Shown here: positions 1-23,460 of the stretch, piece by piece | Layout: the number at the start of each line of letters is the position of its first letter | How positions within the stretch are numbered: position 1 is the stretch's first letter | IMG/VR virus record: IMGVR_UViG_3300025308_000332 | Location: 1-25,467 of that record | DNA length: 25,467 nucleotides | Source: a virus | Direction: 5' to 3' (one strand) | Program-made: the position numbers and the translations under genes | Notes under the pieces: model-generated | Database searches by the model: none | Seen by the model: the letters and a program-made list of their open reading frames with translations, nothing else | What the model was told of the DNA's origin: nothing

Positions 1-996
1 ATGCACAAAGTTTCTGAAATTTATACCCGCAAAGATAAGAGTGGATTTTGGCTTCGTTGGTTTGAAAATCGCAAAAGAAAACACAAAAGTTTCTTGACCA
101 AAGACGAAGCGAAAATGTTTCGCAAAAAGAAGTACATCGAATTGAATGTGGACGTGTACGGATGTGCTGATATGCCTTTTGTATCGGCCAGAGACGAGTA
201 TCTGCAAAAATACGATTTACAGGGATTGTCCCCGGCCTCGAAGTATAGAGCTAAGAGAGTTTTAGAGTTATTCGAGGAAAATTGTAGCCCGCGGAAAATA
301 TCGGACATTAACCAAAGAACGGTTGATAGCTTTATACAGAGCCGAATAAAGGCACTCAAAAGCCCATACAGCGTTAATCAGGCCATTGGCCGGCTCAAAG
401 CCTTTATAAACTGGCTCGTCAAGCGTGGATACCACAAAGGTCATATTGATATTTCAATGATGAAAACTGTCCGAGTAGTAAAAAAAGCCTTGACCACCGA
501 GCAAATCAAGGCGTTGCTCAAAGCCTGCCCTACAAAAATATGTTATATGCGGATATTGCTTTCGCTTGTTACTGGACTGCGTGCCAGCGATATTGATAGA
601 TTACCTTTGGATATTGTTGATTTAAAACGCTCCTGTCTCGATTCCAAGAGCGGCAAGACCGGAAAGACGTATTTAGATAGGCCGTTGCCAGAAAGCCTTA
701 TCCCCGCCTTAACTGAATACATAGAAAGTCTGCCTAAAAACACCGTCAAGCTGTTGCCGGACAATAATATCCGTAAGACGTGGGATACGATTCGAGAGAC
801 AGCCGGCGTGAATTGCACAAGGCAAGATTTTAGAGTTACCCATAGTACCCTCTTACAGAAAATAGGCGGTATCAATGCCGCACAAATAAGCCTGGAACAT
901 TCAGACAAAAGAACTACGACAGATTTTTATAGCGATATTGAAGTAATTCAGCGTTGGAAAATAAACCAACTGCCGGTAAAGGAGTGGTTGGAGTAA
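1..996 (+). CDS. Tyrosine recombinase (phage integrase)
   Basis: This 331-residue protein is a site-specific recombinase that would integrate and excise the prophage. It has an N-terminal arm-type DNA-binding part (about 1-55), a core-binding SAM-like domain (about 60-150) and a C-terminal catalytic domain (about 160-325). Visible catalytic residues are R194 in TGLRASD, K219 or K222 in SGKTGK, R278 in QDFR, H300 in LEHSD and the nucleophile Y310 in FYSD. The first His of the usual HxxR box appears as Gln275. The ATG sits at the first base of the window, so an upstream start cannot be excluded and no ribosome site can be judged. It is transcribed toward the phosphodiesterase gene and opposite to the virion genes, a usual position at the edge of a prophage. 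No attachment site could be identified because only one end is present. Confidence 0.93.
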   Translation: MHKVSEIYTRKDKSGFWLRWFENRKRKHKSFLTKDEAKMFRKKKYIELNVDVYGCADMPFVSARDEYLQKYDLQGLSPASKYRAKRVLELFEENCSPRKISDINQRTVDSFIQSRIKALKSPYSVNQAIGRLKAFINWLVKRGYHKGHIDISMMKTVRVVKKALTTEQIKALLKACPTKICYMRILLSLVTGLRASDIDRLPLDIVDLKRSCLDSKSGKTGKTYLDRPLPESLIPALTEYIESLPKNTVKLLPDNNIRKTWDTIRETAGVNCTRQDFRVTHSTLLQKIGGINAAQISLEHSDKRTTTDFYSDIEVIQRWKINQLPVKEWLE

Positions 997-17750: not shown

Positions 17751-18731
17751 TTAAATACCGTCAAAATACATCATTGAAGCAGGACGAGGCACAGCATAAG
17801 AGCCGTGTTTCATCTCTGCCGCGAACTCTGCACCAAGCAACATTGGAACAGACGGACACAAGGTGTAAGGCATTGGCATCGGCAGGCACTGATTTTCTTT
17901 GTCCTGCTCAAGGATAACCATTCTGTCTGTACCGTTTGCACCAGCTCCCTTGAGATACCGAACAGGCACAACTTTCAACTCTTTGCCTGTCATTGCACTA
18001 AAGCTGTTGTTGGTTTTCAGGTATGTCAACGCTGAAACCATCGTTGCACTTGCACCCAAAGCCATAAATGTATTGGCGAGCAAGAGGAACTGCGTTACAG
18101 GCAGGCAGACCATACCTGGCTTATGAACCGTAAGGGTTGCGTCAATGATATAACTGATACCAGCATTGACATCAGCAACCATCTGTGCTCCGGTCTTAGA
18201 AGCCCACTCTGTATCGCTGGCTTCATCCGCAGGGTCGTTACCTGCAACCGTGGCAACGTTCACGCCGGCATAACTCAAGAAGCCTCTGAATCCAACGGTC
18301 GTATCTCCGAAAAACGTTGTGGTCTCAATGAGGTTTTCGCAAGCCTTTTTCATCGCCTTGCCAAGCTGCGAAGCAATGTCAAGACGGAAGCCCATACTGT
18401 ACTGGCGGGCATCTTCATTCGTTACCTCGGCAGCAACAGCAGAAGCAGCGAGAGGAAACGTAATCATACCATTGGATACATTCACCTTTGGAACATTCTT
18501 TCCGCCCTTATTGCTCTGGAAACCAGCCGCTCCCTGATGGTCTGTCAGGAAGAAACCGAAATTCTGTGCACCGGGATTGATGTTTGTAATAATCTGGTCT
18601 TCTGCCAGTACGTTACGCCAGTCAAGTTCTGGATACCTGACTTCTAACAAAGCAGAATTTACTTCCGTTGTGATTTCAACGGCCAGATTTACCGCTGATA
18701 CTTGTGATTGACTTCCGTATGTTGGAGCCAT
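17751..18731 (-). CDS. Major capsid protein (DUF2184-like)
   Basis: The 326-residue protein is an HK97-fold capsid subunit of the DUF2184 type. Recognisable parts are the N-terminal arm (residues 1-50, EVRYPELDWRNVLAED), the QYSMGFRLDIASQLGKAM helix near 109-126 corresponding to the spine helix, a glycine-rich loop with DTTVGFRGFLSYAG near 143-156, and the C-terminal PSVPMLLGAEFAAEMKHGSY. It lies next to the cement and protease/scaffold genes. The ATG has AGGAG 8 bases upstream. There is no in-frame proteolytic leader obvious by eye. Confidence 0.88.
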   Translation of the reverse strand: MAPTYGSQSQVSAVNLAVEITTEVNSALLEVRYPELDWRNVLAEDQIITNINPGAQNFGFFLTDHQGAAGFQSNKGGKNVPKVNVSNGMITFPLAASAVAAEVTNEDARQYSMGFRLDIASQLGKAMKKACENLIETTTFFGDTTVGFRGFLSYAGVNVATVAGNDPADEASDTEWASKTGAQMVADVNAGISYIIDATLTVHKPGMVCLPVTQFLLLANTFMALGASATMVSALTYLKTNNSFSAMTGKELKVVPVRYLKGAGANGTDRMVILEQDKENQCLPMPMPYTLCPSVPMLLGAEFAAEMKHGSYAVPRPASMMYFDGI

Positions 18732-18779
18732 TGTCTATCTCCTAAAAAAGAGTGTTTTTATTTCGTTAGCCTTTATGGC

Positions 18780-19367
18780 TTATTGTTTAAACTCAACGAG
18801 AGCCATTCCGTTGACAACGTTGGATATAAACTTTCCGGTCGTCAATTTAACGGTGTCTATTTTCAATGTGCCGTCTGCACCGGACGTGATAACCTTGTTG
18901 CTGAAACTGCCGATGTCGAAGCCGTGAGCAGGCGTAACTTCGTCTTTGATAATCAAATAAACATCATCGTCAGCGGCGACATCACTGTAATTCGCCTTAA
19001 CCCACACTTTGAAGCCGCCACGATTCGGCTTTGCAACAGCGGCAATACGCTTTTGAGCGACATAGCCGTTACCGTTTGCATCACACTGGCCAACTGCCGT
19101 GCGAAGAACGATACCGCCGAAGTCAGCCTCAGCGAAAGCACTGCCCGGCAAAGCTGCCTGATAACCGTTCACGCCCTCGCGGACAGGCGAAGTTACCGGC
19201 GTAAGAACAACGCCGAGACCGAACTTTATGCCGTCTGTTTCCGAAACAGGCACATTCTCAACATTGCTCTGCGACAGCGGGCTTGCCAAGTCGCCAATTA
19301 GGGCTGTACCCATTTGATTTGGATAAGTACTCTGAACGCTTCCGAATTCTGTTCCTGTAAATGCCAT
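18780..19367 (-). CDS. Capsid cement/decoration protein (Gp24-like)
   Basis: The 195-residue protein lies just before the major capsid gene. It starts with GTEFGSVQSTYPNQMGTALIG and PLSQSNVENVPVSE, as in structural cement proteins that stabilise capsids, and contains a beta-rich core with GFKVWVKANYSDVAADDDVY. It ends with FISNVVNGMALVEFKQ. Start ATG 19367 with AAGGAG 9 bases upstream. Between it and the protease gene lies the first copy of a structured terminator-like RNA. Confidence 0.78.
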   Translation of the reverse strand: MAFTGTEFGSVQSTYPNQMGTALIGDLASPLSQSNVENVPVSETDGIKFGLGVVLTPVTSPVREGVNGYQAALPGSAFAEADFGGIVLRTAVGQCDANGNGYVAQKRIAAVAKPNRGGFKVWVKANYSDVAADDDVYLIIKDEVTPAHGFDIGSFSNKVITSGADGTLKIDTVKLTTGKFISNVVNGMALVEFKQ

Positions 19368-21214: not shown

Positions 21215-23032
21215 TTAAAGCCCTGATAAACTGTTTTTATTTAAAAACTTTTTTCTATCTAAAATTGGTATTGCTATACAGCGGCAGTTATGTACAATAT
21301 AACTGTTAGCTGAATAATAACCATTATTTGATTGGAGATTGTAAATATGACGATTAGAAAGTTCACAGACGCTTTTCTTAATCACGCGACAAAATTGATA
21401 ACTGAGGGAATCACACTTAAAGACGTTGCCGTCAGAATGGGGTGTAATCCTGACAATCTCAGCCAGTGCCTCCGCAGACGGGGGATTAACACGGACACCA
21501 GAAAAGGCCGCCCCGCCCATAACAGATATAATCACCTTTCTGAAAAGGAGATTGTCCAGCTCTATTCCGAGGGTATGAGTGAAAAAGCTCTTGCTGAAAA
21601 ATTTGGTGTTGAGAGACCGCCCATCACTCGTATTTTGCGGCAACATAACATTCCGCGAAGAAGCCAGAGCGAGAGTATGTTTGTGAGAATGGCAAATACT
21701 TCTATTGACGGCAGAAAAGATATTACAAAAAAGGCTCGTAATGCTCGTAGGAAGATAGCTCAAAACACTGAGCAAAAAAGAGGTCATAGAGGGGGTGTTT
21801 TGGGTCGCGGAGAACTGGAACTGATTAACACTCTTCGCATTCAAGGTTATACCGTTACGCCTCAAAAAGCCTTCGACGTTTATAGTATCGACCTCGTTTT
21901 CAACACCGTCGCCGTGGAAGTCAAGTCTGGAGCAGCGTCCGCTCGAAGCTCCCGCAATTTGGCAAGAATCCCATATATCTTTAAAGCTGGCTACAAATTC
22001 GTTATTGTTCATTTTGCAGACGAAACCGCCCTCAAAAATGGGCTTGATGAGATAATCACCCTCTTGAACTTCATTGATAGGCAACCAACCACGATTAGTC
22101 AATACTGGATGATTAGGTGTGGCCTGCAATCGTCCCCCCTCATTCGTGGTAAGCGTCGTAAAGATTCCACTATACTTGCGTCGCCAGAGCTTGTTACAAC
22201 CATTAGAAAAATCAATTATAGCGTCGCCGAGTAAGCAGTTTATCGCCTGTCCAGGGTGTCCGTCTTTTGGCGGCTTCGACCATAAGAAAACTTTGCCGTC
22301 CCTGTGATAGTGGTCGCCGTGAATGTTTGATGCTTTTGGCCATTTACCGCCCGGCTTACCTACAACCCTGTTATCTTGACTGCTCCGCCATTCATAGGCA
22401 GGGATTCCCGCTTCGGTCTGCTGGAATTCGGTTATCGCGGCATTGGCCTTGCTGGTCTGGTCTCTTGCGATAAATTTCGCTCTGGCTTTTGTGGTATCGC
22501 CGATAAATTGAATCTGCTGCCATAGCGTCCGTCCGGCTGGTAATGGCTGTTGCTTTGTAGCAGTCAAGACCGCTCGGCTCACTTCGCCGATGTATTGGCC
22601 GGGGATTGTTTTAATTAGCTGTGCGGCTTCGACTGTCGCCGTATCCATAACCTGCTGCATTTTCTTGTCGTCAAATAGTACCTCAACGCTCATTTTCATT
22701 TTGTCCGATATGCCGGCAATCAGCTTTGCTTTGTTGTTGTCGAAAATATCTGTTGCAAGTTTCTTGCCTCTGCCCTGCGAGATTGAATCGAAGTGTCGTT
22801 GCCACTTGTCAAGAGCCGTCCAAAGTTCCTGATACTTTTGAGATAGTAAAGTTTGGTCATTCCAACGCCGGGCGGTATTGTGTATGTCGGCACGCATAAT
22901 AGCAATTTCGCGTTCTAACGCCTTGCGAAATTGTTCCTCGGATTTAAACGGCGGTCTTATTGGACGCAATCTGACCTTGCCGGCTTTCGGTTTGCGTTTT
23001 GGGTCTTCGGGACTGGACAAGGCAATAATCAT
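21215..23032 (-). CDS. Minor head / head morphogenesis protein (Mu F-like) carrying an intein
   Basis: The precursor is 605 residues from ATG 23032; this start overlaps the previous stop as ATGA and is preferred to an in-frame TTG at 23041. The extein is residues 1-265 plus 583-605, about 288 residues after splicing. It has a helical N-terminus and then the Mu F/SPP1 gp7 core: ARAKFIARDQTSKANA, AYEWRSSQDNRV, then the GHPGQAIN-CRC motif near the end. The intein interrupts exactly this conserved N-CRC site, between N265 and C583. The role is assembly of the portal/prohead and possibly DNA entry. Splicing is needed to restore the motif, so an active intein is likely. Confidence 0.88.
   Translation of the reverse strand: MIIALSSPEDPKRKPKAGKVRLRPIRPPFKSEEQFRKALEREIAIMRADIHNTARRWNDQTLLSQKYQELWTALDKWQRHFDSISQGRGKKLATDIFDNNKAKLIAGISDKMKMSVEVLFDDKKMQQVMDTATVEAAQLIKTIPGQYIGEVSRAVLTATKQQPLPAGRTLWQQIQFIGDTTKARAKFIARDQTSKANAAITEFQQTEAGIPAYEWRSSQDNRVVGKPGGKWPKASNIHGDHYHRDGKVFLWSKPPKDGHPGQAINCLLGDAIIDFSNGCNKLWRRKYSGIFTTLTTNEGGRLQATPNHPVLTNRGWLPINEVQEGDYLIKPIFEGGFVCKMNNNEFVASFKDIWDSCQIAGASSGRCSRLDFHGDGVENEVDTINVEGFLRRNGITLNAKSVNQFQFSATQNTPSMTSFLLSVLSYLPTSITSLFCNIFSAVNRSICHSHKHTLALASSRNVMLPQNTSDGRSLNTKFFSKSFFTHTLGIELDNLLFRKVIISVMGGAAFSGVRVNPPSAEALAEIVRITPHSDGNVFKCDSLSYQFCRVIKKSVCELSNRHIYNLQSNNGYYSANSYIVHNCRCIAIPILDRKKFLNKNSLSGL
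21271..21298 (+). promoter_or_regulatory. Possible promoter for the antisense endonuclease gene
   Basis: TTGCTA (21271-21276) and TACAAT (21293-21298) lie 16 bases apart, about 49 bases before the ATG at 21347. The -35 would lie in the C-extein and the -10 inside the intein. The -35 matches consensus at four positions and the -10 at five, so it is only a candidate. Confidence 0.35.
21287..22237 (-). mobile_element. Intein in the minor head gene (317 residues)
   Basis: The intein starts with Cys1 (TGC, 22237-22235) and ends with Asn317 (21289-21287), followed by Cys+1. Block A is CLLGDAIIDFSNG, block B has TPNH with T40 and H43, followed by LTNRGWLPINEVQEGDYL. Block F is IYNLQSNNGYYSANS and block G is YIVHN with the penultimate His316. 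All residues of class 1 protein splicing are present. Residues about 63-280 show no LAGLIDADG, HNH or other nuclease motif in this frame. This region is Ser-rich and looks like the shadow of the antisense gene. Compared with mini-inteins of about 130-150 residues, the extra 170 or so residues correspond to that gene. Confidence 0.9.
21347..22234 (+). CDS. Antisense HTH + PD-(D/E)xK homing-endonuclease-like gene inside the intein
   Basis: This gene encodes 295 residues on the strand opposite the intein and lies completely within it. ATG 21347 has GGAG 9 bases upstream; an in-frame TTG at 21332 is less likely. Residues about 15-46 (ITLKDVAVRMGCNPDNLSQC) and 64-102 (SEKALAEKFGVERPPITRIL) are two helix-turn-helix units. 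A basic linker follows (about 105-150). Residues 153-225 resemble a PD-(D/E)xK nuclease: an early helix with E156/E158, D182 in YSIDLVF, then E191 and K193 in VAVEVKSG, then a strand KFVIVHF. Probable role: cut the intein-free minor head gene and promote copying of the intein. Residues after about 236 lie opposite intein blocks A and B and may be constrained by them. Homing is inferred, not shown. Confidence 0.8.
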   Translation: MTIRKFTDAFLNHATKLITEGITLKDVAVRMGCNPDNLSQCLRRRGINTDTRKGRPAHNRYNHLSEKEIVQLYSEGMSEKALAEKFGVERPPITRILRQHNIPRRSQSESMFVRMANTSIDGRKDITKKARNARRKIAQNTEQKRGHRGGVLGRGELELINTLRIQGYTVTPQKAFDVYSIDLVFNTVAVEVKSGAASARSSRNLARIPYIFKAGYKFVIVHFADETALKNGLDEIITLLNFIDRQPTTISQYWMIRCGLQSSPLIRGKRRKDSTILASPELVTTIRKINYSVAE

Positions 23033-23460
23033 TTGTAGCAAATATCCTTTTCTTGCTCAATAGGCTTAGGATTTTTCGGCTCTGCCCCTGATGTTATCTG
23101 TTTCAGCAAATTAAATTCAAAAATCCGCATTGCGTTCATAAGGTCAGTAGTCGAAACACCAGCAAGCTGATGCGTGGTCGTAAGGCTGCCGTTTTCATTC
23201 CACTGGAAAACAACGCTTGCTTGTCGGACGGGCTTTTCGTTCTTTGCCGGTTTGATTTTCATTCTGCGTCTGCGTTCTTCCCACTCTGCGAGCCTGATGT
23301 CATATTCCGCCGATATTTCCACTTGCTGTTTCTTTGACAGTATTTCCGCTGGCATAGGAACTCCGTCAATTAAATACTGATTGCCCTTTACAAATTCAGG
23401 AGCAATAGGAGCGTCAACATTTACGTCAAACGGTTCTGTGTAACACTTGAATTCTTTCAT
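23029..23460 (-). CDS. Virion-region protein between portal and minor head genes
   Basis: This 143-residue protein has no recognised motif. The first half is polar (VDAPIAPEFVKGNQYLIDG), the middle is a charged helix (AEYDIRLAEWEERRRRMKIK) and the C-terminal part has TTDLMNAMRIFEFNLLKQI. AAAGGG lies upstream of the ATG, and its stop overlaps the start of the minor head gene as ATGA. Its place suggests a portal-associated or early head assembly role, by position only. Confidence 0.65.
   Translation of the reverse strand: MKEFKCYTEPFDVNVDAPIAPEFVKGNQYLIDGVPMPAEILSKKQQVEISAEYDIRLAEWEERRRRMKIKPAKNEKPVRQASVVFQWNENGSLTTTHQLAGVSTTDLMNAMRIFEFNLLKQITSGAEPKNPKPIEQEKDICYK

Follow-up and report, generated by a model that had tools for sequence, protein, structure and literature searches.

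In the textbook view the homing nuclease of an intein is part of the polypeptide that is spliced, and homing and splicing therefore share one transcript and one timing. The locus described here raises the question of whether one stretch of DNA can instead carry the two functions on its two strands. It lies in the window, by which we mean the whole stretch of 25,467 nucleotides analysed here (IMG/VR record IMGVR_UViG_3300025308_000332), where an intein in a phage head gene on the minus strand faces a long open reading frame on the plus strand. The initial annotation had proposed that this frame is a homing gene made independently of the intein. To accept such a reading one has to ask whether the antisense frame is a gene at all, what kind of protein it encodes, how it would be expressed and whether the element as a whole behaves as a mobile one.

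Genomic setting and host gene

The window is a myovirus-like prophage inside a 2.93-Mb draft bacterial genome. It has an integrase gene (1-996, plus strand), and further genes encode tail sheath, tape measure and baseplate proteins, a major head protein, a portal and a head maturation protease. The intein resides in a gene for a MuF-like minor head protein (21215-23041, minus strand; Phage_Mu_F, E = 3.9e-7; phrog_15127 head protein, 1e-93), whose 608-residue precursor is encoded in a single unbroken frame, as are the precursors of its relatives at the IMG/VR loci examined. Where the host genes of related inteins were examined they encode MuF or minor capsid protein 2. Elsewhere in the window, another long antisense frame (18708-19301, plus strand) faces a virion structural protein gene (18780-19367, minus strand) and is probably due to chance.

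The intein on the sense strand

The intein comprises 317 codons (21287-22237, minus strand) and extends from an initial Cys (22235-22237) to a final His-Asn (21287-21292), directly ahead of the Cys of an NCRC motif that provides the next extein residue (21284-21286). Block B reads TPNHP (22106-22120, minus strand), of which T40, N42 and H43 are invariant in alignment A4, and block F reads HIYNLQ (21332-21349, minus strand); both the borders and the full set of splicing blocks agree exactly with those first assigned. The Pfam Intein_splicing profile matches with E = 2.7e-8 and 34.2 bits, slightly below the gathering score of 35.8. Sequence, Pfam and NCBIfam matches and invariant columns together identify the element as an intein, which is predicted to splice.

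It had also been claimed that the intein has no recognisable nuclease in its own frame, and this was borne out. Profile searches of the sense frame against Pfam, NCBIfam and phrog families matched no nuclease family, and within the intein Pfam and NCBIfam matched the splicing domain only. In the AF2 model the splicing-domain ends reach pLDDT values above 90 and residues ~81-120 are of intermediate confidence (around 70-88), whereas the linker (126-249) lies mostly below 50; fold matches of the model are inteins, and they are made through the splicing parts. A sequence search of viral contigs found no relatives of the sense protein of the window.

The antisense gene and its predicted product

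The antisense gene (21347-22234, plus strand) starts with the ATG at 21347, ends with a TAA at 22232-22234 and encodes 295 residues. The stop lies opposite the Leu codon TTA, the second of the intein, and the ATG opposite the His codon of block F, so that the gene fits exactly within the intein; the two frames are in the register that places sense codon position 1 opposite antisense position 3. Homologues, selection and a confident AF2 model (mean pLDDT 88.3) lead us to predict that its product is a homing endonuclease. The model is laid out as two successive helix–turn–helix (HTH) motifs, a long helix and a nuclease domain. The first HTH spans residues 8-44 (21368-21478, plus strand; AF2 helices 8-19, 24-31 and 35-44) and the second, of the resolvase type, residues 66-99 (21542-21643, plus strand), where the AF2 model is joined by a Pfam HTH_7 match of 24.8 bits against a cut-off of 23.8. 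The extent, strand and length of the gene and the presence of an HTH, all part of the initial annotation, thus stand unchanged.

The nuclease domain occupies residues ~154-260 (21806-22126, plus strand) and includes E156, Q173, D182, E191 and K193. Profile searches matched it to 3r3p, the structure of I-Bth0305I (E 1.3e-4, and 3.1e-4 in a second search), and also to MTES_1575/DUF559, while Foldseek with the antisense model returned NGO0050 (3hrl) and 3r3p with a probability of 1.00 for both and E 0.01 for the latter. The domain had been described as a PD-(D/E)xK-type nuclease; it does appear to be a nuclease domain, but its closest affinity is with I-Bth0305I and its Vsr/DUF559-like fold and not with a generic PD-(D/E)xK enzyme. 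Judged by these profile and structural matches, the antisense protein is a nuclease related to the homing endonuclease I-Bth0305I. E156, D182 and E191 are conserved in the family, and all three, together with K193, are intact in the copy in the window. A WH...H segment present in the A6 group is missing from this copy and the residues after E191 are altered, with K193 kept; the His of the EDxHD set, found as WH in the A6 group, is not evident in the window protein. The BFVD entry A0A3G3BXE8, a viral protein of 297 residues, matches the antisense model structurally over nearly its full length (E 3.9e-19) and is possibly a member of the family.

Chance and selection

From the antisense-stop codon frequency of the other late genes of the window, an antisense frame of 296 open codons would arise by chance with P = 6.4e-5. 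Its length alone is no proof of a gene, because antisense runs of 172 and 203 codons are present elsewhere in the window. That it is a gene follows from near full-length antisense homologues (E about 1e-24) together with substitutions that preserve the antisense protein in 29/29 independent pairs. Single-base codon differences between close relatives, taken as 29 disjoint pairs, were sorted as silent in the sense frame, the antisense frame, both or neither. Within the linker, differences silent only in the antisense frame numbered 768 against 374.6 expected, and those silent only in the sense frame 274 against 367.9, that is, below expectation. The exteins gave the opposite picture, with 244 antisense-only-silent differences against 668.4 expected and 1688 sense-only-silent differences against 678.4. 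Since transitions were weighted in a simple way to obtain the expected numbers, the argument rests on the flip between the two regions rather than on the absolute ratios, and this flip has the same direction in all 29 pairs (odds ratio 19.4). These counts show that selection preserves the antisense protein between the splicing blocks and the sense protein in the exteins.

More divergent relatives can be compared by BLAST of their linkers, and here the antisense bit score exceeds the sense score in 3441 of 3444 pairs. Among 67 non-redundant loci, codons that would stop the sense frame occur 0 times against 478 expected and those in the reverse direction 0 times against 649, figures that are zero partly by construction, as the loci were chosen as open frames. 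The phage of the window is without a close relative; its direct evidence consists of the linker bit scores, up to 117 bits for its antisense linker against relatives and 68 at most for its sense linker, and the selection counts come from other loci.

Relatives and their association with inteins

Antisense relatives are found in Aaphi23, MSW-3 and phages of Klebsiella, Vibrio, Gordonia and Salmonella, each inside a head-protein or hypothetical gene at that position, and an intein surrounds the antisense gene in every phage record examined (about 30). Searches of viral contigs found 198 relatives with a first alignment (A1) and 326 with a second, with some contigs shared between the two sets. 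Among the best 80 of the 198 and the best 80 of the 326, the antisense gene lies inside a longer intein reading frame in 80/80 and 80/80 cases (160/160 IMG/VR matches), and the codon register never differs; the same holds for both of two loci in bacterial genomes. The initial annotation had named two findings that would speak against it: antisense homologues never associated with inteins, and intein homologues that lack the antisense frame while the same linker is conserved at the protein level. The former is contradicted by the counts just given. Nor were inteins of the latter kind found among nine further phage inteins picked from the sense side, including those of Rhodococcus REQ3 and a Helicobacter prophage: 9/9 carry the antisense gene, and by the bit scores above it is the antisense frame of the linker that is better conserved. 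More than a hundred lineages of related phages share the antisense arrangement.

Free-standing full-length homologues were not found among 392 genomes of the same phylum, in which the genome carrying the prophage gave the sole full-length match and the remaining matches were confined to the HTH region or to a DUF559-like segment; plasmids held no homologue of the antisense protein at E ≤ 0.01. Of the copies examined a single one, in Salmonella phage GE_vB_M5, has a broken antisense frame, in a record marked UNVERIFIED in which sequencing errors are possible. In the record of Salmonella phage PK2 the antisense frame (locus L009, 2441-3250, plus strand) is annotated as an overlapping hypothetical protein, which most other records omit.

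Start signals and promoters

The complement of block F supplies both a Shine-Dalgarno sequence and the antisense start codon. In the window the Shine-Dalgarno GGAG (21334-21337, plus strand) lies 9 nt ahead of the ATG, and in general H-[VI]-Y-N-L-[QE], read in reverse, yields yTGGAGgTTaTAaAcATG. The Leu codon of block F is CTC, the one that produces the Shine-Dalgarno, in 69/76 loci against 12.6 expected from extein usage, a contrast whose p-value overstates independence because the loci are related. Upstream of the antisense start, a site with at least 10 of the 12 bases of the sigma-70 consensus is present in 54/121 lineages, against 2.8 expected from dinucleotide shuffles, and a perfect TTGACA-N17/18-TATAAT just upstream in 23/121 against 0.00 expected, the lineage L049 being one example. 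The -10 box is mostly 32, 34 or 38 bases ahead of the start. In this set of 121 lineages the starts were chosen partly by their Shine-Dalgarno, which biases a count of the latter; the Shine-Dalgarno did not enter the promoter score.

In the first promoter set the -35 box often lies opposite the last intein codons. The penultimate intein residue in this set is Ser and not the usual His in 32/65 lineages, a replacement that the needs of the promoter may, as a conjecture, have driven. It is Ser, Lys, Gln or Arg rather than His in 43/65 (L041, L049, L051, L073 and L098 among them). In several lineages the SN codons at the intein C-terminus furnish the antisense TTGACA box.

The window itself has a weak promoter-like site, TTGCTA-N16-TACAAT (21271-21298, plus strand), which matches 9/12 bases and is not significant alone; strong promoters occupy similar places in relatives. 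This weak site and the missing WH...H segment make the nuclease activity of the window copy itself uncertain.

Mobility and empty sites

The joined exteins of other carriers align with many intein-free phages as one unbroken stretch (wksl3, 93.2%; Geezett, 91.1%). Checking the intein borders against intein-free alleles, as had been suggested, thus confirmed them in close relatives of other carriers, and a search for a close intein-free allele of the phage of the window found none. The inteins of PST-H1 and LSPA1 are 97-99% identical, whereas the flanking upstream head-gene DNA is ~70-80% identical, and RCIP0015 and KpTDp1 display the same contrast between intein and flank near the site. Near-identical inteins in divergent phages, side by side with abundant intein-free alleles, form the pattern that homing predicts. 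In Escherichia phage KMB36 an intein (1649-2701 of locus L133, minus strand) occupies another site of the same head gene; its antisense protein belongs to the family but has diverged, and a search of viral contigs with this protein found no relatives.

A dual-coded motif

Within the nuclease domain, the antisense residues VAVE (188-191) face the sense residues FHGD at 21908-21919, and in about 100 lineages both strands keep the motif. A nearly invariant sense [FL]-H-G-D lies opposite the antisense [VI]-A-V-E. The antisense Ala of the motif is encoded by GCC in 101/102 lineages, compared with 44% of Ala codons overall, and the Val that follows by GTG in 97/102, compared with 22% overall. This codon choice indicates that the sense [FL]HGD is conserved beyond what the antisense protein needs. 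The sense linker is thus under constraint as well and may have some role of its own.

Proposed mechanism and alternative explanations

The locus very probably represents a mobile intein that uses one strand of its DNA to encode splicing and the other to encode homing. From one strand, in frame with the minor head gene, would be made an intein that excises itself from the head protein; from the other, an independently initiated nuclease with two HTH motifs and a Vsr/EDxHD-like domain. The target of this nuclease would most likely be a head gene that lacks the intein, carried by a co-infecting phage or prophage and cut at the conserved codons that surround the NCRC site. Repair templated by the intein-bearing copy would then insert the intein; the nuclease gene shares its bases, as does the promoter in many lineages, and so both would be transferred with it. 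The family is thus best read as a widespread type of mobile intein with a homing nuclease that would be expressed independently from the opposite strand.

The most sceptical alternative denies that there is a gene: the antisense frame would be open by chance or through codon bias in register with the sense gene, and its homology would mirror sense conservation. The chance runs of 172-203 codons elsewhere in the window lend it some credit, as does the fact that sense linkers also match one another by BLAST. We rejected it, and give it a negligible probability, on account of the flip in the strand of selection in 29/29 pairs, the excess of antisense over sense bits in 3441/3444 divergent pairs and the stop-codon counts; the matches of the antisense protein to independent HTH and nuclease families and the conserved start signals and promoters also argue against it. 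A gene so established might still encode a DNA-binding nuclease that is not a homing enzyme but serves the phage or prophage in regulation, exclusion or packaging, and is merely sheltered in the intein. Its resolvase-type HTH, the occurrence of DUF559-like domains in many non-homing proteins and the residues of other groups that the window copy lacks would all suit such a role. Yet no full-length relative examined lies outside an intein, the intein spreads among divergent phages at a fixed conserved site of which empty alleles exist, the match among solved homing enzymes is I-Bth0305I, and even the different insertion site of KMB36 bears a diverged antisense protein, all of which renders this explanation rather improbable.

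Mobility could also be driven from the other strand, if the sense linker were a functional domain, for instance a new kind of nuclease centred on FHGD and translated in frame, and if the role of the antisense gene were no more than to modulate it. The near-invariance of [FL]HGD where the antisense code permits change and the intermediate confidence of sense residues ~81-120 (pLDDT around 70-88) are in keeping with this idea, but past the splicing domain no family is matched, the fold matches are inteins by way of their splicing parts, and the linker is mostly of low model confidence and evolves more rapidly in its sense frame than in its antisense frame; we regard the idea as very unlikely. 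Unlikely too, though more plausible than either of the last two, is that the antisense protein is a homing enzyme in the relatives and an inactive, decayed one in the window, where only splicing would be maintained, an explanation compatible with opposite-strand splicing and homing in the family as a whole. Decay is predicted by the homing cycle (PMC7765530) and would account for the weak promoter-like site and the altered residues after E191. Against it, the copy in the window keeps E156, D182 and E191 within a frame of full length, has a Shine-Dalgarno and is modelled with a confident fold, and in relatives the antisense protein is under selection.

Separate genes on opposite strands would allow the nuclease to be made on its own schedule, for example from a sigma-70 promoter, with the head protein made late. 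The locus also represents an unusually long, deep and testable overlapping antisense pair: the overlap extends over about 250-300 codons, recurs in more than 100 lineages, and combines selection that can be measured on the antisense frame with a sense frame that stays open. The antisense gene has been missed by standard annotation even in well-studied phages of Salmonella, Klebsiella and Escherichia.

Comparison with known systems

Inteins are described as full-length, mini and split (PMC7765530), and homing enzymes as either free-standing from introns or fused to an intein (PMC3943268). The premise of the initial annotation, that known full-length inteins carry the nuclease as an in-frame part, agrees with both accounts. 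Full-length inteins such as PI-SceI and PI-PfuI share with the element in the window a self-splicing element with splicing blocks, a conserved site and a homing nuclease; they differ in that their nuclease is in frame with the intein, (PMC3943268; PMC7765530), whereas here it would be the product of a gene apart, antisense to the intein and equipped with start signals. A precedent for the orientation had been sought in group I introns, correctly so: in the nuclear group I intron L2066 of Didymium squamulosum an antisense homing endonuclease gene is expressed and active (PMC9548176). In both cases the homing nuclease gene lies antisense within a self-splicing element, but L2066 is an RNA intron in rDNA with an enzyme of the His-Cys family and no second protein-coding frame to keep open, whereas the host element in the window is an intein, with splicing blocks and a frame open to translation.

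I-Bth0305I resembles the antisense protein in its related nuclease domain, in its separate DNA-binding region and in being housed by a self-splicing element within a phage gene; it sits in a group I intron, however, and not in an intein, and the EDxHD His is not evident in the window copy. Closer in one respect are the 'fractured genes' of split inteins, in which, as reportedly described by Dassa et al. 2009, a free-standing gene for a Vsr-like nuclease lies between the intein halves. There too the nuclease, of the Vsr-like family, is said to be made apart from the intein polypeptide, but the intein is split into two separate genes around the nuclease gene, whereas the intein in the window is one continuous part of a 608-codon frame that the nuclease gene overlaps on the other strand. 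The head-protein inteins of Jerseyvirus and Kagunavirus (Snoke, KMB36 and the UPWr_S phages) are of the same kind as the one described here and are already annotated as inteins; their antisense gene goes unmentioned, apart from a few records that list an overlapping antisense 'hypothetical protein' without comment.

A search of open-access literature found no description of a nuclease gene that lies antisense within an intein. In two intein papers, mentions of the 'complementary strand' concern contig orientation. Beside full-length, mini and split inteins, the present family probably constitutes a fourth natural configuration, in which an intein that splices and a homing gene complete in itself overlap on opposite strands: widespread in the minor head genes of phages (MuF and minor capsid protein 2), with start signals and often a promoter opposite the splicing codons and with both strands constrained at VAVE/[FL]HGD.
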